A DNA stretch of 64,000 bases from contig OY987247.1 of the NCBI GenBank assembly GCA_963920765.1, positions 20,742,471 through 20,806,470 on the forward strand, given 5' to 3'. Shown here in pieces: positions 21,541 to 45,985 of this stretch. Origin of the DNA: Ulota crispa. Its lineage: Eukaryota; Streptophyta; Bryopsida; Orthotrichales; Orthotrichaceae. Each line of letters opens with the position of its first letter. Positions within the stretch are counted from its first letter, which is position 1. The notes beneath the pieces are model-generated. The model saw only the letters and a program-made list of their open reading frames with translations, was not told where the DNA came from and did no database searches. Made by a program: the position numbers and the translations under genes.

Positions 21541-21544
21541 ATAA

Positions 21545-22921: not shown

Positions 22922-25307
22922 GATAGAAATTGTTATCATTGAGGGCATTTTTCCAATGGAGTTTCAAAATCTCACTCATACAACATAGATATTTGTTCTT
23001 TAAAAATCTGGTAATTCCATTTTGCTTGGATAAAATCTTTCAAATGATTTTATCTTGAGTAATCTAGAAGTGAAAAATAGTAAAAAAAGGCTTCGGCCAA
23101 GGGGTTCAAATTTTGTACCTCACGACCGCAAACCAATGGGCCTAGCCAGCACAAGCAGCTATAATACACAAGCATTGTTTGTGGTTGAAGGGGAATAGAA
23201 CGCTTGTGTATTTATATACTAGCTATTTTGCCACTTCCCTCCAAGATCGCGCGATAGGGCAATAGCAGCCACCGACGGCGATGGACAAAGGCAACAAATG
23301 AAGGGCATTGGCAAGTGACGGCCATGCCTATAGGGAATAAGGAGAATATAATAGGAATGATGGAAAGGGTCAATCCATCTCTAGCAGTAACAAACCACAC
23401 TAGACTTTCACAAGTGTAGTGATTGAAACAAGTACAATATAAATCCTTCAAAAAGTTCTATTAGAAGGCAAGTCTTGCCATTTATGGTGTTTTTAGGTAC
23501 CAACTCTTCTTTATTGTGAAATTAGTTAAGATAGCTCCAAAAGTCTACACAACACTTGTGAGATAAATAAAACTAAAATACAAAATAAATATAAAATAAA
23601 TATAAAATATAAAATAAATATAAAATATAAAATAAAATATATTTAAAAGAAAAGCAAAAGAAAGAGAGTGAGTTTTGATTTGATTTTGATTTATCTTTCC
23701 ATGGAGCCCAGAGATGAAACGTAGATTATGGAGGAGGTGGAGATGGAAGTACGATCTTTCATCTTTGCTTTAAGTTTTCTTTTCTTGTGTTTTGAATTTG
23801 AGTTTTGTTTTCCTCTAAATTGCTAATGGTTAAAATCCTTAAAACTTTTAGAGAATCTTTTAATTGAAGTCAGTTCATTGCAATACTAGAAATCATGTGT
23901 TATTGTGACGACTTGAATGTGACTGTAGTTACTTCTTAACCTTTGGTGTTGCATTTTTGGAAGGAGAAATCTTTAGTCACGTTATTATAACTGCCAATCA
24001 CAAATATGTATGGGATTTTGGTACATACAGTCTAGGATTTAGGAGGAACATTGATTTTTTTGGCAGAGAACTGTTAGGGAACAAGCTCGTTGAAGCTATT
24101 GTCACATTATGAATGGTGTCACTACTGTCAATCACCTTCATCAATTGTGTTTTTAGGCATTTTTTTCTTGGTGGAGCTGTCTGCTTGGAAAAGAGCGGGC
24201 TATCTCAGATTTGATGACTTTGCAATTGTTTTGACATAAGCATTAATGGAGTGCATTTTGAATTCACTAACACTTTTGAATGGTTTAATTGATTCATGGG
24301 TTTAGAATAGTGGCAAATAGGGGTTTTGGAGTGGTTTAGGAGAGGGGATAGGATGCTATTGTAGTGGGTTGTGGAAAAAGGTCACTGGGCTCCAATATAG
24401 GGTGGATTTAGGGTTTAGGTGGCTGCTGATTTGGGTTTCAAGGATTAGTGAAGAATTGTTTACTATTTCATTGAATTATAGAATGACAATTTAGGGATTC
24501 AGGGTGAAATATTCATTATATATTTATCCTTTTACAAAAGCAGTTTTGGGTTCTAGGGGTTTAGGAATTTAGAAAGAGGGTTTAGGGTGATAGGATGGGA
24601 GTGTTTATAAGGATTTAGGGTTTAGGGCAAACAATCCACTTGGATACTACAAGTAGGTTATTCACCCATTGCATAACAAACAAGTGAACATTCACTTCAT
24701 CTAGCTTTCATTCCATTATTAGGTATTTTGATTTAGGCTAAGAAATTTTTGGCACTCCTTACTTTTTAATTTTGTTTTTATGGTTCTAGGATCTTTGAAT
24801 CAAGTTTGCTATTTGTGTTTCCAAACGGTTTTTTTTGTCTTAGAAAAATCCCTTCGCAAAGTGAGAATTGTTAAGCAAATGATGCTCCTGTGTCTTTTTT
24901 GAATGGGGGCCATTACTTAGTTCAAAGCTCTTGTGTGATTTAAACTTGCATGTCTGAAGTGAGAACCAGTACTTTGGTGCATGTATAACAAGATACAATC
25001 ACATAATTTTGGTTACGTATGTTTAGGGACTAGTAGATTTGCTCAATTTCATTGGGATATCTCTTCAAAGGGTTTCATGTGTTCACAGCATCACTAGAAT
25101 AGCATCATGCATACTGATAGGAAATACTACATATATTTGAAGAACACCTCTAGCACCTGTTTGGCAATGAGTCCATCTCTAGGCCCATATTAAAGTTCGG
25201 TTAGGCTATCTAATTTAGGATTGCGCCTTCTCCATTTACAATACCTTGATTCAAGATCCAAAGACCTCAACATTGCTTTGGAGCCGTTTACCCTTCATCC
25301 TTCTATG
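22922..25307. other. Anonymous DNA flanking the giant element
   Basis: No gene recognised. It contains an A/T-only simple repeat at 23575-23650 (AAATATAAAATA type) and GGGTTTAGG-type telomere-like runs at 24300-24620. The short frame at 23212-23451 looks fortuitous. Confidence 0.4.
23575..23650. repeat. AT-only simple repeat
   Basis: Irregular tandem AAATATAAAATA units. Confidence 0.75.
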
Positions 25308-25330
25308 CCATATTTAACTATTTCTAGACT
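25308..25330 (+). repeat. Left terminal inverted repeat of the giant element
   Basis: CCATATTTAACTATTTCTAG plus three further matching bases (ACT). It is identical over 23 bp to the inverse of 43778-43800, after which the two arms diverge. Confidence 0.7.
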
Positions 25331-25463
25331 TTGGCAAGTCCAAAATTCATTAAAATAAAAAATTCCTTGATATAAGGGATCAAAAGAGCTTCATATGACC
25401 AGTGCAAATTGTAATAACCTTCAAGAGTTTGTAGGCAGTGCAAGAGATTTACAAAATTGCATA

Positions 25464-26615
25464 AGGGGATCCTCCAATGTATATTGCATAAACCAAGGTC
25501 AAAAATGAAATCCATGGCCGTGCACATTGTCACTGTCAAAATTATCAAGAGATCCCTTGATGAAAATTGAGGGAAAATCTATCCATGTAACCAAAAAGAT
25601 AATAAGATTTCAAAGGTTGAGTGATGCAGCCACAATTAGGCCATTCCAATTCACATACATGCAGTGGTGACAGTAGATGGCAACGCTCAATATATTAACG
25701 CTTCGTTTTAGTTTGCACTAGCCTCCCATGTAGTAGACAAATGCTATCCTTGATAAAGGTTTTAGGTATACTTAGACAAATAAAAATCTTGTGCATGCAA
25801 TGTTGCTTTTGGGGTTTACTCTTTCAATGACAATCTCAATACAAATCGATACTCATTGTAAACATGCAAAGTGCTGCTATTAAATATGTCAGTATACACA
25901 AAAAATCCAACAATGACAACCATGACCAGATCACCAATTGCTAGTGAAGAGCCATAATAGTCATCAAGAGACAAGTCACCTCTTACTAGCATTCAGCACA
26001 CGTTCTAACACTGATTGATTAATCATATTGATATTCATTTCCATATTTGCTAATATGCAATTAAAACTAAACTAGAAGTTTGAATTGACCTTGATACCAT
26101 TGTAATAAAAAATGGAATAGCTAACATGGATAAGCCAAGACTAAACTGCAATGACAAATACAATGTCTACAAATCTCATACATTTCAGAAACCAAACAAT
26201 CATCATGATTTCACAGAAGAGGCACCACTTCAATTCGAAGATATGACAAAAGTCAAAGTCAGAAATGAAGAAATGGGTCTCATCAATGACAATCAAAACA
26301 ACTACATTTGAATACACATCTCTTCGATGAAATAATCAAGTCCTTACATGATGACAAAGCAAACAAAAATACGACAAATTCTACTGATATATTTGAAACT
26401 GAGTAATAGCAAAAGAATTGTGTGGAAGAGAACTATGATAACATTGGAGGATGCCCGATGAATAAATAGTGACACCACGCATAAGAAGATCGTCCGGGGA
26501 TCCCGTGATGAAAAGTGACCAAAGAACTTGGCAACAAAGGATGCATCTAGGGATCCTTCAATGAAAAGAGATTGAAGAACCTAGGAACTAAGGATGCATC
26601 CAAGGATCCTCCAAC
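25464..26615. repeat. Palindromic repeat cluster, left subterminal
   Basis: Five copies or half-copies of the ATCCGGGGATCCCCGGAT family, with centres near 25470, 25553, 26500, 26553 and 26606. They are more diverged than the internal perfect copies. The surrounding sequence has no convincing gene. Confidence 0.7.
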
Positions 26616-26645
26616 AATTCGCAAACCAAGCAGTCATAATCACAA

Positions 26646-29600
26646 TCACGGGTCAACCTTGTTAGACATCCTCAAATTGACTAATGCAGCTTCCATGCTC
26701 TTCTTCCGAATCTTCTTGGTCCTCGAATCCACAAATTTAGACCAATTGAAGAAAACAACAGAAGCTGCATCAACCCACATTGGGGCCGTATCTTCAACAA
26801 CCCATTTCCCGTACCAGCAGTTAAGATACTTCAATTGAAGATTTGTTTTAGATTTATTTGGTTGCCAATATTGAAGAAGGAACTTCCCGTTATTCTCATC
26901 TCCCTCTTCTCTATGGATAGCAAAGAGCGCTCTTCCTAACCAAACTACACAAACAACCAAATCCTCATGTCTTAGTAAAACCCAAGAGCTAGGTTGTATA
27001 TAGCGCCAAGGATTAAATCTATCTCGCGGTGCCTTGTTAGCAAGGCCACAATAAGGTTCCACCTCTTCCACTTCCGGAATTACATCCATGGGATTAATCA
27101 ATGCCCCCGGACAAGAAGCATCGTCTTGCGCTAGCCTCCAATTGTGTTGAGGCCAGAAGCCTTCTACCAATTCCAAAGGAAAAACAGGTAGTGGCTCTTG
27201 TAGCTCAAAGAGGACTTGACTCCAATAATCAACATAAGGACCAATCGCACTGGCATATCCCGTGCATTTTGACATATCATACTTCCAATAGTCAATGTAT
27301 TTTTGCAGTTCTATTAACATAAAACCCTTATTTAGGGTAGCTTTCCAAGCCGTTTCCTTTGCTTTTTCTTGGTTCCTTGTCGCACACAGAACTTTGCAGT
27401 CCCACATTGGCTTGAAAGGAACCGGCTTTAGACAGCCTGATGGAAGCATTGGCCGGCTGTTGCTGTCTTGCCTCCAAAGGCATGTAGACGATTGATCAGA
27501 GGGTAGCCAATGTGTATCAACAGCTGACTTCTTGTACCTCATAATTGGCACACCATTGTTATCAATGTAGAACCGGAACAAGTGCATCTTGCCCAACCCA
27601 ATCAGCTTAGATGAGCCGTCACATTGATAACATTTTACAAAAGACTTAAAATCAGCAAATTTTTATATAAACTCCGGCATGAATGATAATACTTGCGACT
27701 CCATGAAGGATTGCATCAAATTAGTAACCACAAAAGTGTTATTGCTCTTCAAGGTCTTTGAGAGATGATTGAAGTAAGCGTCAATGTCTTTGTGAGTGTG
27801 ATTGACCACCAAAAATCCTACTTGAATTTCCTTGAAGACACCCCAAGCAATAAGGAGTGACAAGAAGGCCATGAGATACTTGTTCTTGTTGTCCTTTGCG
27901 GAGTTGTCAAGCGGCAAATATAGCCTACGAGGCAATGGAACAAATTCCATGCAGGCACCCAGTTGAGTTAGCTTCAAACTTTCTAGACACCTAGATTTTC
28001 CTCTGAGAAGTGCCTCAAAAATTAGATTTGCCAGTGGATATGGAAAAAGGACACCGGTTCCACGTAATGGGGGACCTTCTAGTCAACAAAATAATCTAGC
28101 CAAAGAAGATATGGTGTAGTTAGAATCTTTCGGCCAACATGATGGCGCATAATGAGCATAGGCATAGTCATAGTGACCATGAGCTACCATTCCGGTCACG
28201 CTCATTGGAAGCTGCCTGAGACCTTGCGTTGCTTTTGTTGTTTTTCACATCATCGGAACAGCTGTTTTGGCTGTATCCATGTTGTTGTGAATGACACATA
28301 GAATTTCTTGCCGATTTCTTTTGGGTTCTTCACGCCAGGAGAAATAAAGCCACCGATAGTAAGATTAGTGATTTAGATGTTCAGTAATCTGCTTCATGAA
28401 CTCTACAAACTGGGGACTCCCCTTTGTCGTCTTTAGAAGGAATTGCTAAAGTTGATTACAAGTAGTATACTTTGCAAACGTGCTTCCAACCGGTTTGGTA
28501 GAAACATTGTTAAAGTGCTCCTTATTGATTCTACTTATAGTAGAGTGGCTAATTGGAGGAAGCCCATAATCCTCATTCAACTACACATTGTAATTGAAAT
28601 AGACTTCAAAAAGCAATACACAATCAACAAAACATTGCAAATCACAGTAGAGATAGCAGTAGTGAAACACAGTGGCTTGAAGATAGTGAACACATGATGA
28701 GAAGTATCTGGGGATCCCCGGATGAGAAGAGCCACAGCATGATTAGGAAAAAGGAAGTACCTCATTGGCATCAGCGCGGATATGTTTCCAATTGTTCCCA
28801 GCCGGAAGAAATTTGAGAGTATCCATTCTATCGTTGCCAATGCAGCGCATTTGATGAGGCATCTGATCGGCATTGTCGTCTATGATTGCTTTCATGGTTC
28901 CAGTGACCTGTACAGTCCAAACCCTAGGACGTTTAATCCCTTTGTTTTTATGAAGCTTGGAAACTATACCTGCCTTGTACTTGTCAATCTAACTGTGGTA
29001 TGTGGACTTTAGAATACCATGAATTTTTTGCCAAGCAGACGTGCACACCTTAGACCCATAGAATGTGATGAACTTGCGGGTCCAAATCCCATCCAGCTAA
29101 TGTATCTGTCCGCTAGTAGCAATCCCATATTCTTAGCAATCCTCAAAAGATTTCAGGTAGAAATTTGGCCTAACTTTTAATGTAAGTTCTTGAGGAAAAT
29201 ACAAGCAACAGCAACAGTCACAGCATTTCCGGGAATTGACATTTTGAATTTGATCCTCTTGTGTCTTAGAAGCGTATTGGAATTCTTTGATACATATACT
29301 AGGTTTATGCACAATGTAACGGTAAGGCATTTTCAGCCTACCACCAAGATAAGTGAGGGGATCTTCGGCAACGAGCAAAACAGCAAAATATTCCAAAGTT
29401 GCAGTCATGGAACAACCATCAAGAAACCAACAAGATATTAATGGCCACCAAGAATGTGTCATAATAAGGTCCTTGTTACCAAAGAAAACATCAAGGATAG
29501 TTACGCCCACGTCTTTGTCACCTAAGGTTCCACCTTGAAAATGGTCGTCTGGCCGACAACAATTAATACGTCCAAAAGATAGAATGTGACCATCATTAGC

Positions 29601-30053
29601 CTTATGATGCACTTCAAGTCCAAGTCAATTGTTAGGATGGATGAATGAAGATGCATTCATAGGGAGATTCCTGGATGACTTCACTACACAAGAGACTCTG
29701 TATAATATTGTTCTGTCAATGACATCCTCAAGAAACCTCAGGTCCCTTTGACTAGGGTCTACAGAAATTGTCCAAGCGCTATCAATAATAGAGAGAGGTC
29801 GAAGAAGAATGAAGATCTTGGGCTCCAACAGGATGATGACACCAAGCCACTAACCTTGAGGACAAGCTTCCACAACAACCCCATCACCAACTTCTTCAAC
29901 TCCCGCAACAAACAGCTTGATAGCATCTCCATTGTGGAGTGATAGCATATTCTCAAATGAGTTCTGAGACTCCCCAAATGAGGGCGGATAACCACCCGTG
30001 CATGGATTAATGTTCACAAAGGACTTGTTTGAAGCATACATTGTGATTGCCAA
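26646..30053 (-). pseudogene. DUF7869 protein, putative transposase of the giant element
   Basis: Read leftwards on the minus strand. An N-terminal region (30053-29640) has no known domain. A Cys-rich part near 29220 (RKCCDCCCC, then FPQELTLKV) precedes VCTSAWQKIHGI (about 29040) and KNKGIKRPRVWTVQ to DDNADQMPHQMR (about 28850), the usual upstream motifs of DUF7869 proteins. The core has SVTGMVAHGHYDYAYAHY (about 28200), then LYLPLDNSAKDNKNKYL, GVFKEIQVGFLVV and HTHKDIDAYFNHLSKTL (27977-27663). The C-terminal part (27596-26646) has the typical YKKSAVDTHWLP, ELVEGFWP and WRYIQPSSWVLLRHED layout. Conserved D and H residues of LDN, HTHxDID and HGH are kept. Several frameshifts and stops; at least one gap (28440-28760) may be an intron. 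The family is DUF7869 by motif memory; a transposase role is inferred. Confidence 0.8.
28705..28725. repeat. Palindrome copy inside the DUF7869 gene
   Basis: TCTGGGGATCCCCGGATGA, one base from perfect, lies in the non-coding gap between the N-terminal and core parts of the DUF7869 gene. Confidence 0.75.
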
Positions 30054-32324
30054 AAGTGAAGACCTTACACCAATTGAACATCAATTGACCAATCCAAAAT
30101 TTCAGTCTGCACAAATACAAACTTTCTTGTATCAGAGCAGCAAAGAGAGGTCATAGAATATCTAATTGATAGTATTGTTGTGAGAAAAGTAGAGGCCTCA
30201 ATTAAAATTATAGATGGAAAGTATCTAAATACCAATTAAGATGGATTTACTAACTATAGCATGGCAGAGTACTATCACTATAGTACTCCGCTATGCCCTC
30301 AAAAAATAACAGCTGCATAAGACATAATCAACTGGGTTATCATGTAGAGTTCTGAGAATAGACAAATTGTTGAACTTCTTAGCAAGTTTTGGGGGATTTG
30401 CAGATGGTAGGTAACAATTGCAGAGAATATCCTGCTCATGGTGGCCCAAAACAAATAATAATGAAGTTCATGGATATATCAAACCGCCTTCGACAAAACA
30501 CACATTGTAGTCACCACCTGAACACAGGCTACCGCAACAAATATCTGAGAATTTCCAATACAAGATAGTACATTGAGAAGAGAACAAGCATTATCTAGGA
30601 ATCCCCCGATAGAGTCACCTCCAAGTTAAGGCGCAATAGTTTATTCATCCGGGGATCCCCGGATGATTTAATCCCCAAGACATTGTGAATTCCAAACTTC
30701 TAAGTGCGGTGCCCGGCACTGGGTGCTGCTAAAGCCTCAATACTTGTGGCCAAATAATTGATGCTGAGATCTACAAATCTACTGGGAGATCCCCAAATGC
30801 AGTAGTTTTGAATCATTTGCAATTCCCGGATACCCCCAAATGAAACTATTGAAGCAAACATCTATCATTTGACCAGAAGTTCTCATATCAACAAACACAG
30901 GTATCTAGGGATCCCCAAATAGATCATGTATCGAAGATAATTATATCAATATAGTCAAATCTGCCTGGACTTGACTATACGGCCACACAAACCATCACAC
31001 TATTCTCAACTTTTGAAAAGCGCGCAAACAACAGAACATTGTACAGACTCATTGAATCCTTGAACATGACTGCAACAAATTCTATCACTCTCCCGTCCGT
31101 ATGATGCATCAAATGATAAAACTAATGTCTATTGCAACTAGATAATCAACTAGAGTTTAACTGATTCCTTAATCGACTTATAACACTATCAAAATTTCCC
31201 CTCAATTACACTTGCAGTTGCTATATTCAAAGTCAAATCAATTGCAATCGCATACTATTGTCACCTAGCACTTAAATAAATGATAGAATCGCAGCAAATG
31301 CTACACAAAAGAACAAAACAAGAGGATAACTTCTCCACTGAGTCCATCACCTTGAGATTGAAATTCAAGAATGACCAAATAAACATAAAATCCGCAAAAT
31401 AATGCATACCTGTAAAGGAATGCCAAAACTTGAAGCCAACCGCAATGCTCCCATCAACGCTAATGTCCACCGCAATTTTGACATTGCTACGCAACAACGC
31501 GTCGCGCCGTGTAGTCCGCATGTGGCTTTACGCACACAACTGTGCTCTGTGTATTCATTTTGGAATCCAAATTCTAGAGCAACAGAGCTACCACAAAAAT
31601 TCTAGACCCTATGCTAAAGAAGGCAGACATTCTGAATGAAGAACTTGGTTGTTAATCAGTCAAATGGCAGCTTAGTAAATTGTCGCGGACTTGCTCTATG
31701 CACAAGTCAGAGAAAAATGATCCATAAAGAATGCATTGTGGGATTTTGCGTATTGCTTGAGGTTGAGGATCATGAATCCCGCCAGAATTAATTTTTAAGC
31801 TTTCTTGAAGTTCAAATTTGGTCCCGCCACTTTACTATAATACTAATATTTGTTGTGATGAAGTCCACGTGTAGGATTGATGATCTAGAGTTGTACATCC
31901 CTAACAATACTATCAAATCCATGAGTGTCTAATCGATCCAATACATTCTCTACAGAAGAGACCTTATAAAAGTATAAGTTTGACCCCACCTTGTTTTTAA
32001 CCTCTGTTATTTTACTAGTACAACAAAACTTTATGCAGACCTAGATTCTAAAATCAGATTAATTTAAGTTTCATCTTTTGATTTTTCTGACAACGTTTCT
32101 AATTTTAGATACTGCCCTCAATTCTACCTGAAATTTCATGTTGAATCATTAAGTGATGACAATTCCATTGAACATATTGCATTTCTTTGAAAAAAACAAT
32201 TGATCTCCCGTCATTCCTGCAAATTAGCGAAGGTAAAATAGTCCAGAAATCATTCTCAACAAACAAAACTGCCTTTGCTATTCAGTAGGTTCCTAAATAA
32301 TTCAATGAACAAGGGGACCTCCTT
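30054..32324. other. AT-rich interior with palindromes
   Basis: No gene. Palindrome copies at 30592-30611, 30645-30666 (perfect over 22 bp), 30784-30799, about 30824-30841 and 30903-30920. None is seen from 30921 to about 35820. Confidence 0.5.
30645..30666. repeat. Perfect copy of the element palindrome
   Basis: Core ATCCGGGGATCCCCGGAT extended by TC on the left and GA on the right, making a perfect 22-bp palindrome. It serves as the consensus for the dispersed family. Confidence 0.85.
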
Positions 32325-33175
32325 TGAGAGTGTGCCAATTGATTCCACAAAAAATCATCATTTCTCCTTATGGTACACTCAGCCCATAGTATAACTTCCA
32401 CCTCATTCCAGCAAATTTAGCTACTCCAATAGGATTACCTCTATAATTCATGTAGTCTGAAGAGGATAGGGTATGAGGGGCCCCAACAATATTATGTCAA
32501 TTAATTCCACAAAAATTCCCCACTGCTCCTTATAATACCCTCAACCCATAACATGAAATTTGTCCCATTCCAACAAAGTTAGCTATTCTTTTAGAACTAA
32601 ATCTTTAATTCATGTAATCTAAAGAAGGTTAGGGTAGTATGGGCCCTTACTGAAAGTATGTCAATTAATTCCACAAAAATTCCCAAATGCTGCTTATGGT
32701 ATCCTCAACACATGGTCCAAGTTTCATTCCATTCCAATAAAGTTAGATATTCCTATAGCATTACCTCATAGTTCATAAAATTTAAAGAAGATTAGGGTAT
32801 GGGGGGCCCCAACAGTATTATGCAAATTAATTCCGCAAAAATTCCTCACTACTCTTTATGGTACCCTCACCACATGGTTTAGATTTCATTTTGTTCCAAC
32901 AAAGTTAGCTATTTCTATAGTATTAATTCAATAGTTCATGTAATATGAAGAGGATTAGGGTATTTTGGGACGCAATTCAAATTATGTCAACTTAATCCAC
33001 AAAAGTTCACCATAGCCCCTTATTCTAGCTTGATTAGGTGGTTCAATTTTCAGCTAATCTAACAATATTTGCTATTGATTTGTAAGTCACCCCTTACTTG
33101 GTCTATGTTGAATATGGTTAGTTGTGTAAATGGGTCCCCTTTGAGATTTTGGGAATTAATTCCACAAAAGATGCC
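32325..33175. repeat. ~163-bp satellite-like tandem array, about 5-6 units
   Basis: The landmark AATTAATTCCACAAAA (or variants) recurs near 32336, 32498, 32662, 32825, 32988 and 33154, a spacing of 162-166 bp. Units also share CCTTATGGTACCCTCA, TTCCAACAAAGTTAGCTAT and AGAGGATTAGGGTAT. Two related monomers lie at 8015-8330. Confidence 0.85.
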
Positions 33176-34042
33176 CAACAAAATTAAAATTTGGGGATTA
33201 ATCGTTTGGTTTTTAGTAGTTTTGAAGGTATTTCTTTGTTTGCCTTTGCACCTTCTCAAATTTGATATGAGGTATTGTAAATCACCTTTCAAAATCACAC
33301 TTTTAAGGAAGAGTCGCATCACTTCAACTATGATTAGAGAACTAACTCAAATTCTCTTCCATTTTTTAGTTGAAGTAGATTTCATGAATGTAGAGTTTGT
33401 AATTAAAATTAGGATTGAAACAATGGTAGAAGTTCCAAAGAAACACTCAAGAGGCTAGCAGTTATGACATAGAATTTACATATATTGGAAATATGCTTAT
33501 CTTGTAGCAGAAGATCTCATTGATACTTTCATATGTTAATTGAATGTGAGGATAAAATTAGTAGATTCCATATCAAAATTTGGGTTTTTGAACTTAGTTC
33601 TCTAGATGTTTTGAGTGTAAAGCAAGTACAAACCAATTCATTCACCTCATTTTCAAGGTAATCATTTAATATGCTGCATGAAGCTCTTTAACAATAACCA
33701 AGTAATTTGGAATGTCATTACTATTTCAATATTTTCATGATTAACGGAAAAGCAAAGAACATATTTAGAAGAAGATTTTACATCATTGATAAGTATAAAA
33801 AATTTGGAGTTTGTTGCATTACTATGTCATTCAAAGTTTCCAACAATGAACATATGAAAATGGATTCTAAACACACTTGAAATGGCAAAACTTAGATCTG
33901 TGATGAAGAGTAGGCATTTCAAAATGAATTATGATTTTTAGGTGTTACCTATTGTGCGGTGCTTGGATTAGTCTCTTATTCCTTAATCATTGTAATGAAC
34001 TCCAAATCCTCATTATGCAATCTTGAGCAATGCGACTCCTTA
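33176..34042. other. AT-rich spacer
   Basis: No gene recognised; the frame 33069-33458 crosses satellite sequence and is not credible as a gene. Confidence 0.4.
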
Positions 34043-34177
34043 CAATACTAGAAAACTGAGTTGAAGTCAACATAAACTACATGATGTTTCCATACTTCTA
34101 ACGCAAAAATTTGCGTTAGAAACATGGAATCATCATGTAGTAGTTTATGTTGACTTCAACACAGTTTTCTACTAGTG
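34043..34177. mobile_element. Foldback MITE, CACTA-like
   Basis: A near-perfect hairpin of about 65-bp arms. The right arm read inversely starts CACTAGTAGAAAACTG and continues TGTTGAAGTCAACATAAACT; the left starts CAATACTAGAAAACTG. The arms meet at ACGCAAAAATTTGCGT. The end sequence and CACTA start suggest a CACTA-derived miniature. The possible 3-bp flanks are TTA and CTA. A partial copy of the hairpin tip (GTTTCCATACCAGGAACGC) lies at 34240. Confidence 0.75.
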
Positions 34178-34470
34178 CTAGAAAGTGAAAGCTTGTGGTA
34201 CAATTATCACTTTTCAGTGGCGGCCAAGTAATGATGGCGTTTCCATACCAGGAACGCAAATAGGATCACGTACTGTGAGGGTCGTCTTCCAACTCCCCTC
34301 CGGATGGTTTGGCCAATGTTAGGTGTTTTGCCCTAGACGCCATTCTCTCTTGTTGCGTTGCCATCTTCTTGACATTGCTTTTGAATTTCAAGCAACGATC
34401 CAATTTCGTTGCCCTAATTCTTCCTCACAAGTTGTGTGTGACGGGGTTTGTTGCGGCGCGGCTATTGCTG

Positions 34471-34690
34471 GTGAGTGCATTGCTACGACACGAGAGTCAT
34501 TGGCAAGAGATCAATGCGCGTTGGTGCGAGAGTTGAAGTTATTGTGGGTGAGTGCACACCTGCAGCGTGAGAGTCATCGGCAAGCGTATAGTGCGCATTG
34601 GTGCGACAATTGAAGTAACTTTTGGTGAGCGCAGTGTTGCGGCGTGGGAATTGTTGGCAAGTGAGCAGTGCGCATTGGTACCAAAGCATC
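34471..34690. repeat. ~77-bp tandem repeat, three units
   Basis: Units start at 34471, 34549 and 34625 with GTGAGTGCA or GTGAGCGCA and share GAGAGTCATTGGCAAG and GTGCGCATTGGT. Frames through it are repeat artefacts. Confidence 0.75.
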
Positions 34691-36348
34691 ATTGACAGCG
34701 GTGTGGATTTTCAGGAAAGTAGTTGAATAGATGTCGCGACCTTTATCGTCTCATGGTACGACAGCTGAAGGATTTGTATTGTGCAACTACATTGTGTGCC
34801 ACAAATTGAAAATTTCTTTCCTAGTTTTATTGGTTCTCATTGATGGAAGTAGCAACTGAGTGTATGCTGTAATGCTGACTTGTAGAACAAGGACTTGTTG
34901 TTTGGGGTTCTTTGTAGCAAAAATATAGACCTTTTGAATGGAATCAGGGATTCAAAACAATAATATAATACTTCAACCAAGCTCAATAAGATTTAAAAAT
35001 GGTAGGGATTGCAAAACACTATCCGATTGGCAGTGGTGAGCAGCAATTTTGCCAGAAACTGTGTGAGGACGACATGGTATCAAACAACAAGGAAGAATCC
35101 AGACTTGTTACTACAGATACATAAATTTGGTACATACTGCTCATTCTATTCTGTGAATGTCCAATATTCTAGGGTTCAGTTTCTTTTGTTATCTAGAATG
35201 TTGTTTAATCCAACCTCTTTTGTAACATGGCAAAACATTGTCTTCATTGACAGCGGGATGCTATGGGCAATTGAGGGCATGCAGATTCAGTCTTTGGCAA
35301 GCGTTGCAATATACATGCTATTGATATACATATGTTGCAAATATTTTAGCGCAGCAGTGTTCATTAGTGGTTTTCAATTTTTGTATGAATGCGAGCTTGT
35401 TTACAGAACCTATTGTTTGACAATTTACTATTGCATGTGCTAGCTTATATTGTCAAATTGATGAATTGCATGCCCTTATAAGTTAATGTTGTTGAACTAA
35501 ACACACAAATCTTATTTTCACCTGGAAACAAGTGATCAGTAGAGTGTATATCAGGTCGTACAACTAACTCATGCATATTTTAATTGATTTGCAGAAATCA
35601 TTGATGCCACACAAGCACGTGTAGGCCTTCCAAAAATTGCATAAAATTGTGTTATAGCTCCTGAGCTCTTTGTTGAACTCAATTGGTAATCGTACAATGG
35701 TAACATCAACTGCCATGGAGGGAAGAAGCCGTCCTGTATGGGACTTCTCGTAAGTGTTCTACGACTATCTTTGTCAATCTGAATGAAATGAGCTGCATGA
35801 ATCATTTCGTCTCAAGATATAGTCCATCCGGGGATCCTTGGATATGATTTTTTAGAACTTATGCCAACCTCTCTATATTTGGGGATCCCTGGATGCCAGA
35901 TGATTGATATTGCCCAAATCATCCAGGGATCCCCTGACATAATTTGCTAGATTTTGTACAGTTGGGTATGAGTATCCGGGGATCTCCAGACGATGGGATC
36001 AACACATCATATTGAGTAGGTACCTAGACGGTAGGATCAACACATCACGTCCAATAGAACCTCGGATTGATGCATCCATATCTCGGTATTTGGAGATCCA
36101 CAAGTGGAGGTCTTGGTAATATGCACAGATAACTGTCTGCTTCTATATTCTGGTGATATCATCTAGGGATCCTCGGATGAGAAGACATTTATCTAGAGTA
36201 GCACTTTATTTGCTATATGTGCAGCGCCGCTGATGGTCAAGATGCCCCAACTAAGCTCCATCCAGTAAGGCTAGCTAGTTTCTAAGACCACTCGGTTCCA
36301 TCAATCTAGTACAAAGGAGGAAGCCCCCCAAATGTAGTTTTTCGTTGC
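34691..36348. other. Interior spacer with palindrome cluster
   Basis: The 435-bp frame at 35009-35443 is hydrophobic but matches nothing I know and is probably fortuitous. Palindrome copies occur at 35823-35843, 35876-35896, 35920-35938, 35972-35993 and 36160-36180. Confidence 0.45.
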
Positions 36349-36678
36349 TTGACGCAAGTGATGGCATGGGGGTTGGAATGGAAGCTCGTCCCTAACTTTG
36401 ATACTATTGTTTACCCTATCTTAGTGAACGGGGCAAGAATTAATAAAAAGGGCGAGCTGAACGTTGTTGAAGTGCAAGGGCTTGACAATACGTCAGTGCT
36501 TGTTGTAGTCACTGAGAAGTGCCCAGCATCAGCTCAAATCATATCATACAGGTTGATTCTGGAATACGACAACTTTGGAAGGATCTTGTTAAGTCCATAC
36601 TTGAGCAAAGACTGTTTTTTAGCAGACATGATTGCCTTTGATTTAGTCAAAAAGGCATGCAAGTTCAATGGGCTATGA
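36349..36678 (+). CDS. Hypothetical protein in the giant element, 109 aa
   Basis: An uninterrupted frame with alternating beta-like strands (KLVPNFDTIVYPILV, then TSVLVVVTEKC, then ISYRLILEYDNFG). It lies 47 bp upstream of the ParB-motif gene on the same strand and may be its first exon or a separate small protein. No domain recognised. The codon pattern and lack of stops over 330 bp, in an AT-rich setting, argue for a real coding segment. The start at 36349 is simply the first ATG; a farther-upstream exon is possible. Confidence 0.45.
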   Translation: MTQVMAWGLEWKLVPNFDTIVYPILVNGARINKKGELNVVEVQGLDNTSVLVVVTEKCPASAQIISYRLILEYDNFGRILLSPYLSKDCFLADMIAFDLVKKACKFNGL

Positions 36679-37526
36679 TTACTGAAGCCCCAGTGGCCAA
36701 AAATCCTTAGGCAAATGAGATAGTCATGAAACCACAACAGCCATCTCCTCAAAAGAAAAGTAAGAAGAGAAAGTCCTTGGTTGATGGGCCCGGCGACTTG
36801 GTCGGACCTTCAGAGACGGCTAAGAAAACGAAACTTGAGCTTGAGCTTCAAATTTGCGTGAAGATGGACGACGCCGCCATGAACAAGCTCACGGCATTAG
36901 AGATGAAAAATGTCAAGGCCCTATACAAAAAGAACTTCGACCCATACTATAGATGGGGAAGGAAGGCATTTAAGAAGGACAATAGAGAGCAGCTGTGCGT
37001 TCCTTACAAGAACCTGTATAAGGCTCCACCCGGTTTACTTGTCTACAAATCGATAATTCAAGAGCAATTGCGCGAGATTAAGAACAACACACATATTGCA
37101 GGTGACTTGCACTCCGAGCAAAGGTGCATTGTGGTGCTCTCCTTGAAATCGGGTCTTTACTCCAATGGATTTGTCTCTTACTATGACCCAGCCCCAAAGA
37201 AATCCAACATCACGGCGACCACTAATTATTACATAATTGGGGGACAACACATCGTTGAGGCCTACAGGCAGATGGTGGAAGACGAAGAATTCAATGACTC
37301 CAAAGACAAGGCCGACGCATTGACATTCAACATTATTCCGGTTTGGGGACCGAAAAAGGAGTTCACCAAATTGATGCATCTATCAAGGGTTCTGAGTCAA
37401 AATATTGCCGGGAATCAGAAAGAGCAAACCTTCACCCAGCAATTACAAACAGCTGAGACAAAGTGGAGACAAATGAGGAGTCCGCAGCCTTTGTTGAACA
37501 AGAGACATCACTCTAAAGAGTATTTG

Positions 37527-37652
37527 GTAAGTATCTAGAACTAAGAACTCTGATATGTGATTCTTCTATCCGGGGATCCCCGGATACCATATTCAATAGT
37601 TTGATCAAATAGTGACTGCCAGATCAACTGACATTGCTTCTATTTTGCAGAG
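37527..37652 (+). other. Intron 1 of the ParB-motif gene, with a perfect palindrome
   Basis: Donor GTAAGT and acceptor TTTTGCAGAG. Using the second AG keeps the frame from HHSKEYL into KFFPSLV. The perfect palindrome TATCCGGGGATCCCCGGATA lies inside at 37567-37586. Confidence 0.65.
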
Positions 37653-39010
37653 AAATTTTTTCCTTCTCTTGTCACTATATTCTTAAGTGCCAAGGGCACC
37701 GACAAGAATAGCAAGCCTAGGATACCTCTAATGTTCCTGGAGAACAATGCGGAAGTGCAGCATTGGATCATGATTGAGGAGCATTACATGAAAGGATATC
37801 TTCCAGACGCATCTCATAAAACGATCGACTCCGGAGAGACAAAACGCAAACCCCTCACTAAATCCAACTTTAAGTTCCTTTATGGACTCCGCCGAGAGGA
37901 CATGTATGTGATTGCTGAACAAGTGGAAGTGAAGGAGGTGTGTATGAAGAGCACAAAGGGGAAGAATGTCACTGATAATGTTCCCATGGGACTGAAAGAT
38001 GCAGCAAAGCATGTGCAACTAACTCGGTTAATGAAAAACAAGCTAATGAACCACTACTGCAAATTTCTTCTTCCGTGCAAAAATCTAGAATATGTTGATT
38101 ACAAGGTTGCGGACTGGGATAAGCTAGCAGCAGATGAAAGATTTTGGAGGACGACATCCTTCTATGGGTCAACAAGGCAATGGAAATCACAGTTGAAAAA
38201 CAGTGGCTAGACAACTGGAATAAGCCTCTGAACAAAACCTATGACCCAGGTGACTGCCCGGTCTTTGTGAAGGACATGTGGAGGATTGCCAAAGATGTCA
38301 TTGGCGTTGGTTGCATTTTGGTGGACATGGCTGTAGAGTACGCGAAACATCACTACTACGTGATGATGGACTCCAGGACCTGGAACCTTAGCGACATTCT
38401 CTCCTCTCCCAACATTGTGTCATGGCGTGGAGCAAATATGCAGCTCATATATTTCTGCTTCATGTTTGATGAGAATAGCGCAAGGAAAGTGCATGCAATG
38501 AAGCTAGAGGAGAGGAGATTGAGAAAACTCTTTGACGTGCTTGAGGTCAAGGTCCCAAACAATCACCAACCGATAATTGCCCGGTCGCCAGCCATAATTC
38601 TAACAGATTTAGATGGAACGGCATTGGTCATTTCTCATTTGAAGACAAGGAGGGCTAAATCTAAGTATAAGGTGTGGCTTCATCACACTGTGATCTACAT
38701 CCCTCTTGCTAGCGACAACTTCCCATGCCCATCGACTGGGACTAGATTCAACTTCAACGTTGTCTTCCTATTTGGCTATGACCCTAATCAGAGCACGCAA
38801 AATAGTTTTGGCATGTACTTCCTCGGAGCAACAAGCCTGAGACCGATTTATACTGCAAAGGACACAGACAATATCCACAACTATTGGAAGAGGCGAGCGC
38901 TTTTAAGGATAAGAGTAAAGACTGTAATTGATATATTCCTTTAGCACATCAATGACAACATGGTTGTTGTGAATGTTAACGGCGGTCCCGAGTTCACTCA
39001 TCTCGGACTG

Positions 39011-39102
39011 GTAAGTGAATGTTTCTGGTCATCATAAAGTTCAAAATTGATCATCCGTTCATTTTTATTCAATTGTAGTAACATGTGATATTGGAATTGC
39101 AG
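39011..39102 (+). other. Intron 2 of the ParB-motif gene
   Basis: GTAAGT donor and GAATTGCAG acceptor, phase 0, joining FTHLGL to QTAHAKV. Confidence 0.6.
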
Positions 39103-39360
39103 CAGACTGCACATGCTAAGGTGTTGGAGCTCACCTTCTCCAAACTCAAGAGGGTGTCGGCAGTTACAATTGGGTGACAAATATGGGATACAATTAGTCT
39201 TGTAGAAATTCCTGATGATGTTCCTGCCGAAGATGTTCAAAACTCGACAGAGAAGGACTCTGAGGAATCATTGGAGAGCTCTTCTAGTGACTCTGACGAC
39301 TCTCGCAACAATGCGCTATAGCAACTTGGCGGCCCCTAGGTTTGAACTCTTTGTTGTTTA

Positions 39361-39772
39361 TCGGGGGATCCCTGGATGAAATCCTTGTACACAATAATAT
39401 GGATCATAGTAGTTCTTGACGTCTAACTTTGTCGGCTCATTTGCAAGAAGAGCCCATCCAATCTCCTCATTCACATAGGAGTCAGAGGAGCCTTAGTTCG
39501 TTGGATCAAGACAAGAGAGACAAGCCCTCCAATAAGCCGCGTAAGCGGAGATCTGCCGGGTCTCCAGAATCTGATATGGACAACCCTCAATTGCCAAAGG
39601 AGGTTCAGGTTCATTCACCTCTCATTTTGTCAGGGGATCCCCAGATGACTCACTCCATACCACAACATTCCACCATTCAGTTCAACGACAAAGTATCTTG
39701 CCTATTTGGGTAACTTGGCTGCCTTCCAATGCCTCAATATCTTATTTAGGGTATCCGGGGGTCCCCCAATAT
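39361..39772. repeat. Three palindrome copies between genes
   Basis: Copies at 39361-39380, 39630-39650 and 39752-39772. The middle one is inside the frame that starts at 39429. Confidence 0.75.
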
Positions 39773-40864
39773 CATTTTCTCTGTCCATAAAAATCAGACC
39801 TACAAATGTATAGTTCATAAATTTCATCTGCGCAGGATGCCCCTCAGGATTTAGCACGGCCATTAAATCTGTCACCATCCAGGAATTGACAATTTGCGGG
39901 GGACAATGCTGGCTGCTTGGGCAAATCCGCGGCCAAGCGGTCAATCAACACCCGTGGCTACAACGGGAGCACAGGGCCCAAGAAGTCCATCCCATCGACG
40001 AGGTTGCGGAAGACAATAAAGAAGACGGTCCGGCAGAAAAAGGATTCGGCGCCATCAACGCAAGGGGCAAAGCCAACTATAAGAAGGAAGCTGCTCAGTA
40101 GCGCAAGAGATTGGGGTAGCGGAAGTGATGAAGGCGCGGAGGACTCCAACTTGTCCTCAAGAATTAAGCGCACACATCGTCGATCACGTGTGACTTGGCA
40201 ACCCCTTCCTCCTCCAAGTAGGTCATTGTCATTGAATCCCACCAATCAAACCACTGACCCTATGTAAGTAGCTACCACAATTCTATGAGGTCTCTCATTT
40301 TTTGAGCAGCCTTTGCTTGGTCAAGCCCAGTCACAGCAAACCCCCACAATTATAGCTGTTCCTCCTGTGATAGCGTCTTCCTCAAGTGTGTCATTGCTTG
40401 AAGGAATCAAAGCGGATATCAATTTATCCGGGGATCCTTCAATGCCAAGAGAACCATTAGCCGATCTCTCAGATTTTCCTTCTATTGAGAACCAATCTTG
40501 TCCCTCAAAACTCATGACTGAGGAAATCTACATGGATACAATAAAGGATTTGCGCCCTATGAGTCCTCCACTTGCAGCTATAGGACAGGATTTGACTGTG
40601 TCTGATGTCAATGTCAATGTCCCGGTGGATGAGCCAACTATGACGGCAATTGACATTCAGCCTAATTCTTCTTCTACTGCGCTTGTGTTTGGAGGTGTGG
40701 ACGTGTCCAACTTTGAAATCGTCACACTAGATGAAGTGCCAAGTGATAAGGTTCATTCCAAAATTGGAGTTTCTAATCTAGTTCCTTTTTTCTCCTTCAT
40801 TTCTCTTCCGACACTACCTTGTATATCGCCTCCTATTTATAAGAAGGCGTCAAAATCCACTTGA
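39429..40864 (+). CDS. Low-complexity Ser/Lys/Arg-rich protein of the giant element, in pieces
   Basis: Frames at 39429-39713, 39917-40267 and 40313-40864 are rich in Ser, Pro, Lys and Arg (DKRDKPSNKPRKRRSAGSP; LRKTIKKTVRQKK; RIKRTHRRSR) and then acidic with IDIQPNSSST. They look like a disordered, probably nuclear protein. A 46-bp GTAAGT...GCAG gap (40264-40309) could be an intron, though it is short. They lie just upstream of the phosphatase region on the same strand and might be its N-terminus. Two palindrome copies fall inside the frames and are translated as LSGDP(S/Q)M. No domain recognised. Confidence 0.45.
40425..40444 (+). repeat. Palindrome copy inside an open reading frame
   Basis: TATCCGGGGATCCTTCAATG is translated in frame as SGDPSM within the low-complexity ORF. 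The left half matches the consensus; the right half has diverged. Confidence 0.7.
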
Positions 40865-40987
40865 GGTTTGATTTCTTCTTTCTCTTGACCTTGTCAATAT
40901 TTTAGGGGGTAGGGTTAGACAGTATGCTTGACGTGGGTGGGGCATCACAGCCGAGAGAGGATAGTGAGGGCCTAAAGGGAAAGGGAG

Positions 40988-41758
40988 TTGCTATTGAGGA
41001 TGTTGCAGGTGCAAAGAATGACATCCTACTTTGAGATCGACATCATCCCTTTGGCTTTGACATTTGGTTTTGCTGACCCTAACTTCTTGGCATTGTTGTA
41101 CTCTGCAAATTTACAAACTGAAAGTCCCTCTCTGCCGTTGCAATTGAATGAGGTACCTTTCCGACGATACATTGTGGTTCTAGACCTCAACAAAGTCCTT
41201 GGAAATAGATATAGGGCTGATGGAAAGTAGCGCTTTGATTGCAGACCAAGCATTAAATGGTTCTTGAATTGGCTGTATTCCAAGCAAACTATTGGATTCT
41301 GGAGTTGCGCTAGTAAGGGAAACATGCGGAAAGCAATTGAGTATCTTCTGTTGGACGTCTCTTTTGGTGAACTTGACGTTGTTACTCTAAATTAGGATGC
41401 ATGCATTCAGTCTTCGTATAGATCTCCTCAAAATCCAAATAAGCCATTATTTCTAAAGGACCTGAAGGCATATATGAGGATGACTGAAATGAACTTAGTA
41501 GACAACATTCTCCTCATTGATGACAGTCCATACAAGAACCTTATGAACGATAGATTCAGCACAATCCACCCTACTCCATGGCATGGAGACAGGAGTAATA
41601 CTTTCCTTCTTGAGAATTTGCTTCCGTGGCTACGCAGTCTCTTCCGTTCAAATAAGCTTGTTGTGAACTATGTCAAGAACAATCCACTTTCCGAATGTCA
41701 ATCTTCAGAAGATGTTGACTTTGAATTAGCGCAGCATGTTCAGAGCGGACTTCCACTT
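40988..41758 (+). pseudogene. FCP1/NLI-interacting-factor-type HAD phosphatase, two stops
   Basis: A Ser/Thr phosphatase-like HAD fold is recognisable. YIVVLDLNKVLGNRY is motif I, with nucleophile Asp and DLN instead of DLD, as in a subset of plant FCP1-like proteins. RPSIKWFLNWLYSKQTIGFWSCASKGNM covers the pre-motif helix and motif II. KPLFLKDL supplies the motif III Lys. NILLIDDSPYKN is the motif IV Asp pair, followed by the usual C-terminal acidic-aromatic part (HPTPWHGDRSNTF, then LLPWLRSLF). Two in-frame stops (41228-41230 and near 41394) break it. Its presence inside a mobile element is unusual; capture from a host gene or an element-own enzyme are both possible. Confidence 0.75.
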
Positions 41759-41785
41759 TAGAAGGAGAATTCATCTTGAGAAAAC

Positions 41786-43660
41786 CATTGGGGGATCCCC
41801 GGATGGGGCTCTCTTTGCCTATGCCTTAAAACATATGGGAACCCATGTATAGGCTATATTGTATACGGGGATTAGATGACTCCCTTTCTATTCAATGTAT
41901 GAGATCTATCTTTCTATCACATCATTTATGTAATTGCAATGGATTGGATTGTCATCCATTGTGGAGATTACCTTCTTGTTTTTTATGCATTCACACTTAT
42001 ACATCACATGTGCCTGTTTGAGTTATTTCCATTGCAATATGATTGCATCAGATTTAGTAGTTTCTGCCCCTACCTATTGAAATGCTTATTATTTCTAGAT
42101 ATCATAGATATTTGAATTTCCGTCATAACCTCAAACATTTACTTAGATCTGACATTCTACAATTTGGAATGGAACTTGATTCTAAATATGTCCTTCTTTG
42201 TTCAAGAGGTCTTGTGATAGTTTGGTATGTTGTTATCTTTTCTGTCTTCCACATAGTAGTTCATATTCACATATTAGAATTTTTGCCCTTTGTAATTGAT
42301 ACTGCGCCAATGTCACTTAGTGTACTTATACTCATTGTGCACCATATATCTGGGGATCCCCCAATGCCACCTTGTTCTGTCTTACCTCAAGCTTAGCTTT
42401 GTTGTGAGGTTGCTTTTTGCAGGAGGCGTTGCTTTTTGTACTACACAGTTGTCTTTGTGTTCAAGGTGGTATCGCGGATCTTCCACAACGTTCTGAGATT
42501 GATCTTGGCTTTGTTTGCCTAATGCAATACGCCATTAACTTTAAGCGTTGTGGATTATGGTTGGCAATGCTTCCTCCAACACTTTTGGAGTTTCTGTGAC
42601 AAATTCTTCCAATGGACATTAACTCAAGTTTTCAATTTTCAGCAGGAACAACAACTTTTTCCAAGAGCAGCCATGAGCCAAGTCCTTTTGAGATTGTGAA
42701 GTTGCTTTTACATAATCCTTGCATGCATAGCCTATTTTTAGATAGCAAATTGATAGTGGTTAAGATAGATCCTCTCAATTATTGTCAGTTAAGTAGACAA
42801 CTTGGATTCATACATGTCACAGATGTATCATGCACTAACTTGTGATAATTTCTTTTTGCAATGTCTTAGTATATCTAATAGGCACGTTTGTGGTTGCTTA
42901 GTCCATATGAATACAATTTCAACAATGTTTCTTTGTTATGTTTGTTTCTGCTCCAAGTTAACCAATGTCTCAATATTCCATTGCCTTCACTCTCCTAATT
43001 GATGTTCTTTTTCTTTGATGGACAATCGTCACTCTGAAGTGTGAATTTGGTTTTCCTCTATTGCTAGTCTCACTCTATTTGGGGATTCCCTATTTGGTGT
43101 TGAATTAGTTTGCCTACTATGTACATTTTTCCCTTGTCTGATGTGCCTCTACAGGTTCATGCGTTGCCCATTACATTATTGTTGTCGGAGGATCCCCCAA
43201 CACGGATTTGATAGTTCTACCGGTCAAACCTGTCAACTGTAAAGGTTTATATTTAGGGCATTCAGTCTGTTACAATTCTCACTGTAGTTTGTCCTTGATG
43301 TCCATTCTACTAGATAAGAGCAGTGCCATAGTGGACATCACCCACTTCACCAGGAGACTAGATGTCCATTTGTTCTTATTTTATGGTTGGTCAGCTCCAT
43401 TTTAGTCGTCGACTCATGTCAAGACTAATTCCAAGTATTGATCGCAAAGTTCAGCCATTCTTGTCTTCGGCAAAGCCTTCCCAATTGAGACATCCTTTCT
43501 CTTCCCATCTATGTATCTTCCGACTATTAATTTCTTGTAACACTTCAAAGTCACCGCATTTGTCTTTTATCACAAAAGTAACAGTTTAACTACATTGAAT
43601 CATACCTATCAAGAAACCTCCTCATGATTGCCTTAACACATTGGAAGATCCCTCAACGAC
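41786..43660. repeat. Palindrome copies, right subterminal
   Basis: Copies near 41786-41805, 42348-42367, 43077-43097, 43184-43202 and 43643-43658. The last two are diverged. The surrounding T-rich sequence has only short frames with no recognised domain. Confidence 0.65.
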
Positions 43661-43777
43661 TTACATTGCTATTCCTCACTTTCCTTGCATGTTTTTCTGC
43701 CTTGCACCTTTTTCTTGCATACTTTAGTGAAGTCCCTTGATGAATACTAACATGGCCTAGTCCTAAATTCTCCGTAT

Positions 43778-43800
43778 AGTCTAGAAATAGTTAAATATGG
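43778..43800 (-). repeat. Right terminal inverted repeat of the giant element
   Basis: Inverse of CCATATTTAACTATTTCTAG plus three bases, identical over 23 bp to 25308-25330. Confidence 0.7.
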
Positions 43801-45104
43801 AATTACTCATTCTCAAACTACTATAATCACTTAATTTGTTTTTTGATTTAAGTGTTTTCCAAACCCCAAAAACCTTACATTTGTGAACCCTCATCTGTGG
43901 ATTTTTTCCTTGGTTTGGTGGGACTTAATTGTTGTTCTTGGTGCTCATGCTTTTATGGTTATTCAATACTTGCCATTCACAAATAACATATTTTCTCTTC
44001 CTTCTAATTTGTCCATTGCAAAAATGACTACAACTTACATTGTCGCCTATTTAGGGCTTCCAATTTCAATTCAAACAACAAACGACTAAGGACATTACTT
44101 AGTGCCAATCATAAAATGGTTACTCTGTCAACTCAGTGCTAGTCATATAATGATTACTCCATGGTAGTTATATTTGGGCTGTTTATAAACATGGCCTCTC
44201 ATGATCTTTGAAATCATCCTCCTCTACTTCGGCATTCATGTTCAACAACAATCACTCTCTAATGCCTCATAATTTTTTAAACCTCCTGATATTCACAACA
44301 ACCATCTCCTAATTCTTGATACCTCCTGTGATAGCATAGGAAAGTAGGGTGAATGCATGGTTGAGTGGCTCAAAAATGTGACAAATTATAAAAAACTGCA
44401 TAGACTCAATTTTTAAATGCCAAAATGGTACATTGGAAATTTTTGAATAAGAAAAAGTCCATTGCAGAGACTGAAACTTTATTGTAACTACAATAATGTT
44501 GTTCAGTTTCTTTTTTGGCATTTTATGGAGGTGTGCAAGACTTTTGAAAAAACGTGAGTGTGACATTTTTGCTGTTTGCAAGATTATCAAGAACTTTTTA
44601 AAGATGGCATAGTTACCTAAGAGAATACAAAGGACTATGATTCCAATGGGTACTAGGGTAAAATTTTAAGAAATTAGAATCTTGTTTTGTAAATATGTAT
44701 AGAATGTTTGCAAAGGACTTTCTAAGGCCTTTTTAAACCTTCAATCTTACGAGTTCTTTTCTCTTTTGTATTTTTTTGTTTTTCCAATTTTTGTTTTTTC
44801 AATTTGAGTAATTTTCTGAGTTCTAGGTGTGCCTCTAGCAATAAGGACTTTTTGAATAACTTTGATTGATTTAAGTCTAAGCCCTAGAACATAGCCTGTA
44901 GTGGATAATTTCAAAAAGAATAGATCTAGAGACATTGGACTGTTGGATTGAGTTTATAAGTCCATTGTAGAATGGAAGAGGCCACTTAGCCGCCAGGACA
45001 CTTGATGCAATTACAAACTAATAATTGAATCAAAATCCTTAAAGCCACTTAAAGGACTTTGAGACTAGGAACTTTTGCCAAAATTGAGCCACCCAACCTT
45101 GCAT
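43801..45104. other. Anonymous DNA with a CACTA-like patch
   Basis: AT-rich with no gene. A CACTA subterminal-like patch (ACTTAGTG, TAGTCATATAATGATTAC) lies at 44026-44170. Short minus-strand frames such as 44309-44590 are not credible as genes. Confidence 0.4.
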
Positions 45105-45985
45105 TGACCCAATACTTATCCGCCAATTGGCATTAAAATAAGCTTAAAATACCAAGTAGATGACTTGTTTTAGTTTGATAGAGATTTAGTTTGATAGAAA
45201 TTTAGTTTGTAATTCCTTAAGGTTGTCTGGAACAAGATGAAGAAATCCTATAGGTAATTTGCAAAAACACCCACAACACACATACACAAAGGAAAGGTAA
45301 CCAAAAGATCACCAATCAATCGACAAGATTTTGAATTATCCTCCCTTCCCTCTCTAACAATCCAAATAATTGGAAGGAGTGGCCTATCCTTGTACCTCTT
45401 CCGGATCCGGTTGCAAAACACACACAAATAATAGAAGTTTAGCCTCTATATCAAAGGATTACGTGATTGGAGATTTACAAAGGCCACGTGAAATCCTACC
45501 CTTCACGACTTTAAAGTGTCTGAAATAGCACTAATCAACACCAAAAGATAAAAACACAAACGCAATAGGGTACAATTATTCCCTCACAGCCAATCTAGAA
45601 GTGATTCCAGACTGACAGGTCACACGGGAAACCCTTACAACCCCAAAATACTATAATGACAAACCCTTCTTGACATAATTCTTGGTGCTAAGATGGTAAC
45701 CAAATAAAGGATCCATGCTCATTTGCTCACAATCACTTGAGGCGGTAATGGAACCTCTCAATTGTTAGCTAGCATGCATTCGGATCACTATCCGGACGCA
45801 CCCAACCTAAGACTGACTATCCTTTACAAGAGTACCCGGATTGTAAACCCAAACAAAACTACCCCTTAGTACACACAATTCTATAACCACCTCCCTACTG
45901 GCTCCAAAAACCAGATCAAACAGGATCCCAAGTCATTTCTCTCTCCTTTTCCTCCAACATTGCCATTCCCATACACAACACCTCA
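45105..45985 (-). repeat. ~830-bp dispersed repeat, copy C (inverted)
   Basis: On the minus strand it carries the same blocks as copies A and B: GATCCTGTTTGATC, GGGTTTACAATCCGGGTA, GAGAGGTTCCATTA, GGGTTGTAAGGGTTTCCC, TGACCTGTCAGTC, TTTCAGACACTTTAAAGTC and GAGGCTAAACTTCTA. It follows the end of the minus-strand ORF family at 46256-48208. Confidence 0.8.

Follow-up and report, generated by a model that had tools for sequence, protein, structure and literature searches.

A decayed member of a giant DNA transposon family in Ulota crispa, with a DUF7869 gene, a ParB-like motif gene and a family-specific palindrome array

The window analysed here, a stretch of 64,000 nucleotides of Ulota crispa DNA (C6:20742471-20806470), contains an element of 18,499 bp at positions 25305-43803 that is bounded by a 23-bp inverted repeat and reads ATGCC at its left end and GGCAT at its right end. 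The two arms of the terminal inverted repeat (TIR) are 26 nt each and 96% complementary, and their 23-bp core is the same at both ends. Inside the element lie a gene with the DUF7869 domain and, on the other strand, a gene with a ParB-like motif (gene B hereafter), ORFs that we judged by eye to be probably disordered, a segment resembling NIF/FCP1 phosphatases and a further coding-like segment by the right end. Tandem repeats and 17 dispersed palindromic sites complete the inventory (Table 1).

Table 1. Positions of the features of the element in the window
Feature	Position	Strand	Remark
Left copy of the 4-bp target duplication, TTCT	25301..25304		One mismatch relative to the right copy, TACT
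Left terminal inverted repeat	25305..25330	+	
DUF7869 gene, 3' part	26646..28082	-	Two ORFs in one frame, split by one TAA
Region upstream of the DUF7869 ORFs	28083..29989	-	Partly conserved as protein in other elements
Palindrome example, ATCCGGGGATCCCCGGAT	30647..30664		
Tandem repeats, unit about 163 bp	32313..33178		Mid-element
Gene B, start	36310..36678	+	Conserved ORF
Gene B, ORF with ParB-like motif	36711..37538	+	IIGGQHIVEAYRQM in the window copy
Gene B, later ORFs	37632..38944	+	
Probably disordered ORFs	39890..40864	+	Judged by eye
NIF/FCP1-like segment	40976..41761	+	Motif LDLNKVL; broken by stops in the window copy
Conserved coding-like segment by the right end	42408..42842	+	
Right terminal inverted repeat	43778..43803	-	
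Right copy of the 4-bp target duplication, TACT	43804..43807		
GGGGATCCCC site starts, 1st-9th	25465, 26496, 28710, 30651, 30785, 30907, 35881, 35925, 35978		
GGGGATCCCC site starts, 10th-17th	37572, 39364, 39633, 39757, 41791, 42352, 43081, 43188		

The ends of the element recur in the genome. When 275 Mb were searched for the TIR with up to three mismatches, 137 matches were obtained, compared with 3 for a reversed-pattern control. Among the 100 TIRs listed of these 137, 12 inward-facing pairs lay no more than 70 kb apart, with spans of 16.5 to 58.6 kb, whereas random placement of the TIRs gave a mean of 0.65 inward pairs and a maximum of 3 in 200 draws. Seven other elements were read whole, one (C8) at its ends only, and the short ends of eight more were read; with the window element, this gives a whole-read set of eight, which does not include C8, and a set of 17 with both ends. 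The eight copies read whole measure 16.5-23.1 kb and share a common layout, in which the DUF7869 gene points to the left end and a divergent gene set points to the right. All seven of the other whole-read elements contain the DUF7869 ORFs, the gene B ORFs and the NIF segment; six of them show DLNxVL within the NIF region, and the second disordered ORF was matched in five by ORF comparison. DNA similarity to the ~163-bp tandem repeats was found in six of the seven (it is absent from C9), three times in the same and three times in the opposite orientation. Alignable DNA among the elements differs by about 25-36%, and each of the eight whole-read copies carries stops in at least one gene.

The flanks of the elements carry a short target duplication. 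Among the 17 elements with both ends, the 4-bp duplication is perfect in 10, has one mismatch in 4, the window element (TTCT/TACT) among them, and has two or more mismatches in 3; when the flanks of different elements were compared as a control, the 4 bases agreed in only 2 of 272 cases. When lengths from 1 to 10 were tried, the share of matching bases was highest at length 4 (0.81), versus 0.26-0.41 at the others, and in element C2b a 7-bp repeat fits better than a 4-bp one. Empty sites were sought by searching the joined flanks against the genome, with 40 of 10,738 candidates scored and 44 rows obtained. For the C9 element, 39 of the 44 rows showed an uninterrupted repeat across the junction, all of them whole matches at 92-94% identity; the C11 element yielded 2 rows at 92-93% identity, and C2a a single weak row that was only 79% identical. 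At the base level, three C9 sites contained a single copy of the 4 bases and no element sequence, and two C11 sites carried the same 4 bases in one case and a version with one base different in the other. The sequence-only reading had proposed a giant transposon between perfect 23-bp inverted repeats around 18.5 kb, and this is borne out by the recurring ends in both orientations, the 4-bp duplications, the empty sites (clean for C9 and C11, weak for C2a) and the common gene set. The window copy is a decayed member of a family of giant cut-and-paste DNA transposons.

A further, imperfect inverted repeat lies outside the element at 22382-22691 and 45399-45707 (310 bp, 75-78% complementary). This outer pair was considered as the true element end and rejected, since it is an instance of a dispersed repeat, for which at least 40 matches were obtained (40 scored of 194 candidates); for the same reason the 23-bp repeat is a separate feature and not part of it. 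Also in the surroundings, pieces of Transposase_21 (CACTA-type) and DUF4218 flank the element in opposite orientation, at 16132-19050 on the forward strand and 50561-52902 on the reverse strand. Several words with CCCCTAAACC or CCCTAAACC, which we take to resemble plant-type telomere repeats, occur at 21543-21808.

Among the divergent genes, gene B has a motif, reading GGQHRVEAHKIL in one copy, that we take to resemble the ParB box. The earlier designation of a ParB-motif gene holds as far as this motif, and no ParB model in Pfam or NCBIfam matched gene B. The best lead was DUF6551, a family presumably linked to ParB, at an E value of 0.19, which is below the cut-off; other Pfam matches in the scans of gene B and the NIF segments, for example DUF5737 (E 0.0026, below its cut-off), were at chance level. 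The FCP1-type domain is real, with a weak match: NIF (PF03031) in the window scores 23.1 bits against a cut-off of 21.8, and the matching segment from the relative C1a, scanned alone, gave no NIF match. The disordered ORF of the sequence-only reading agrees with our own judgement. As for "cargo", the recurrence of the ParB-motif and NIF segments in the seven other whole-read elements gives them the appearance of conserved components of the transposon. Across the genome, 53 gene B matches were merged by hand to 38 places, 25 of which lie no more than 27 kb from a DUF7869 match in divergent orientation; the 53 match rows contain 89 TAG, 42 TGA and 16 TAA stops, TAG being the commonest. Median dN/dS values were 0.23, 0.26 and 0.28 for the gene B ORFs, 0.34 for the NIF segment, and 0.20 and 0.25 for the two DUF7869 ORFs (28/28 pairs), with a maximum of 0.55 over the element genes; many synonymous sites are near saturation, and 19 to 28 of 28 pairs per gene were used once saturated pairs were left out. 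Values this far below 1 indicate that the genes of the element evolved under constraint, though the copies now carry stops.

These features were compared with those of known transposons. EnSpm elements end in CACTA, KDZ elements duplicate 8 bp of their target, and Sola1 elements duplicate 4 bp. The features of EnSpm/CACTA membership, namely CACTA ends and a tnp2 transposase, are absent here, as the ends read ATGCC and no Transposase_21 was found among the 10 ORFs inside, and the 4-bp duplication sets the element apart from KDZ. Like the giant EnSpm and KDZ elements of a recent report, it is large and carries accessory genes (PMC12477816). The likeness to the Sola superfamily, membership of which is decided by the transposase, lies in the 4-bp target duplications and short TIRs, both described for Sola2 (PMC3627910). 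A Sola1 from Physcomitrella is named in a review table (PMC9033089, table entry). In Ectocarpus, Sola1-1_Ec32 is a 21.5-kb Sola1 that encodes a ParB-like protein on the strand opposite to its transposase; this protein combines the ParB-like domain with a DNA methyltransferase domain, and the authors suggest that such proteins may act on the transposon that encodes them, by binding and modifying it (PMC12477816). The element described here is alike in being a giant DNA transposon with a candidate ParB-like gene, recognised by its motif, on the strand opposite the putative transposase. It is unlike Sola1-1_Ec32 in that no DNA methyltransferase domain was matched in gene B by single-sequence Pfam scans, which can miss diverged or broken domains. 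The passages on Sola1-1_Ec32 also mention neither a dispersed palindrome nor an FCP1 domain, and no comparable element with either was found in the literature covered, most subscription papers lying outside it.

On the basis of the ParB-like gene layout, the 4-bp duplications and the Physcomitrella Sola1, a relation to Sola1 is to be expected, and the element family is probably related to it. The description of the element as "undescribed" therefore survives only in part and was too strong, because the relevant passages of PMC12477816 already present a giant Sola1 with a ParB-like gene opposite its transposase. A plainer account, which overlaps with our best explanation, would make the element an ordinary Sola1 member: DUF7869 would be the Sola1 transposase and the ParB-motif gene a known accessory, so that only the host and the palindrome would be new. 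We give this account slightly better than even odds. The same three resemblances speak for it, and it is weakened by gene B, in which no methyltransferase domain was detected, unlike the Ectocarpus protein.

The sequence-only reading had reported a dispersed palindrome confined to nearly the interval of the element, and it is indeed limited to it: with up to one mismatch, all 17 window sites of GGGGATCCCC lie inside the element and 0 in the 45.5 kb of flanks. Each of the eight whole-read elements contains 17-29 such sites, versus 0.05-0.5 in first-order Markov sequence, and the half-site ATNNGGGGA, read towards the axis, occurs in all eight; the base before it is mostly C in six elements and T in two, the window element being one of the latter. 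The strict 20-bp form CATNNGGGGATCCCCNNATG has 26 sites in 275 Mb, compared with 0 for the control, a tally that understates all sites because the loose form is the commoner of the two. Each of the 26 has a gene B match or a left-end match no more than 25 kb away; this zone amounts to at most 1.35% of the genome, and its limit barely includes the farthest site, at 24.4 kb. The palindrome is thus a signature that marks the element family, and the family-specific array is its most striking and least explained feature.

As for what the palindromes are, we rejected a hairpin or covariation reading. In all eight elements, the arms of one site match no better than the arms of different sites, and 70 to 474 of 500 shuffles of the arms reach the observed value; arms that pair no better than shuffled partners give the palindromes the look of a symmetric protein (dimer) site, not of a hairpin. 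None of the 17 window sites falls in what was treated as coding sequence (33% of the element, with approximate exon borders), and a looser copy at 40426-40450 lies inside an ORF. The sites might instead be by-products, for example small-repeat remnants spread by gene conversion or slippage, and some of them do cluster at near-regular steps in several elements, as from tandem duplication. We consider this origin doubtful, however, given that the half-site is nearly identical in all eight elements despite their DNA divergence and that the presumed coding segments are free of the 17 window sites. Bacterial ParB-parS systems consist of a ParB protein with a palindromic site on its own DNA. The element is similar in that one of its genes has a ParB-like motif and that the palindrome is confined to the DNA bearing this gene, and different in that no ParB model matched, no ParA family was found among the ORFs scanned and binding is putative. 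From the co-occurrence and shared location of gene and sites, we infer that the gene B product may bind the palindrome.

The DUF7869 match in the window is real (27663-28082, E 1.7e-28), and the D/H motifs are kept as previously claimed, with LPLDN...VVNHTHKDID readable in a gene that has one in-frame TAA. To our knowledge, Pfam lists DUF7869 without a function, and a literature search by that name found no paper. In the numbering of L015, the conserved residues are D132 (17/18), H163 (18/20), D180 (18/21), D194 (19/21), D211 of the LDN motif (21/25), H247 and H249 (24/25) and D253 (23/25); D132, D211 and D253 are candidates for the active site, D180 and D194 being the alternatives. AlphaFold models reached a mean pLDDT of 45.9 for the 525-aa L028 with 25 alignment rows and 50.5 for the 411-aa L015 with 31; both models are too poor to lean on, and the order of strands and helices in the L015 model would, with low confidence, suit an RNase H fold. 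A PDB sequence search with DUF7869 gave no match, and an IMG/VR scan with its alignment returned 88 pattern matches and no relative. With regard to location, a DUF7869 match lies 1.9-6.8 kb inside, in opposite orientation, at 26 of 36 left-end matches, where about 0.2% would be expected (142 DUF7869 places were used), so that second loci with matching ends and this gene do exist. It is missing from the expected place at the other 10, some of which are right ends caught through the common TIR (C6:245354 and C2:1447606, low-coordinate ends of inward pairs).

A transposase role of DUF7869 is supported by this location, by its conservation and by the finding of no other transposase-like ORF among the ten scanned with Pfam inside the element, and it is unproven; the position stands behind the earlier proposal, and structure or chemistry gives it no backing. 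DUF7869 could instead be a passenger or regulator, with the transposase supplied by another gene or by a helper elsewhere. Catalysis by DUF7869 is putative, and the stops in at least one gene of every whole copy make mobilisation in trans possible. Such a role nevertheless appears unlikely for a gene that is constrained and holds a fixed place by one end of an element in which no other transposase-like ORF was seen among the ten. Still less credible, to the point of being very improbable, is an integrated DNA virus or Polinton-like element: the large size, the several genes and a single match, at chance level, to a prohead protease family of phages (Peptidase_S77, E 0.16) are set against capsid, polymerase and packaging families that did not exceed the cut-off in the 10 ORFs inside and the IMG/VR scan without a relative.

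DUF7869 itself is more widespread, with at least 157 matches in the genome (150 of 246 candidates scored). Only 5 of 30 examined loci have DNA like the left 5 kb of the window element, which indicates that DUF7869 in this genome is broader than the family of that element; judging by this comparison, much of the genomic DUF7869 is part of something different or of diverged types. No TIR was seen at the 30 loci within 1.5-kb flanks, which do not extend as far as the usual end. A second type of DUF7869 (L009-L021) aligns uninterrupted over almost the full Pfam domain, and no ends were found for it. Contig C11 (6.3 Mb) has a DUF7869 density of 4.9 per Mb, versus 0.2-0.8 on ten other large contigs (142 places); one guess is that it is a small TE-rich or sex chromosome. 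Two further DUF7869 loci, L036 (C10:627202-630624) and L037 (C10:831956-835378), lie 205 kb apart in inverted orientation and are identical over 3,423 bases, either by duplication or as an assembly effect.

Our preferred reading, to which we assign a probability of roughly 75%, is that of a decayed giant cut-and-paste transposon with a DUF7869 transposase, a palindrome-binding gene B product, an FCP1-like regulator and probable kinship with Sola1. In such an element, DUF7869 would be a transposase of the RNase H-fold DDD/E type that binds the element ends and makes a staggered 4-bp cut. The gene B product would bind the dispersed palindromes as a dimer, and this binding would mark, fold or regulate the element's own DNA, like ParB on parS, while transcription would be the target of the FCP1-like domain. 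We read the element as a giant transposon similar to Sola1 that carries an array of parS-like sites; Sola1 membership, the ParB assignment and the transposase chemistry are unproven. A more specific proposal, which we put forward as a tentative possibility that we would not expect to prevail, is that the transposon has its own ParB-parS-like system, in which a ParB-like protein would load on element-specific palindromes and spread or bridge.

These results tie DUF7869 to mobile elements with defined ends, and a transposase role thereby becomes directly testable. The palindrome is a candidate target for binding by the ParB-like proteins of transposons, and the results also bear on how DNA transposons of 20 kb still bring their ends together. 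If the ParB-parS-like proposal is true, ParB-like loading would gather 20 kb of DNA so that distant ends pair, or would set a chromatin state, and such a system would let a cut-and-paste element reach giant size.
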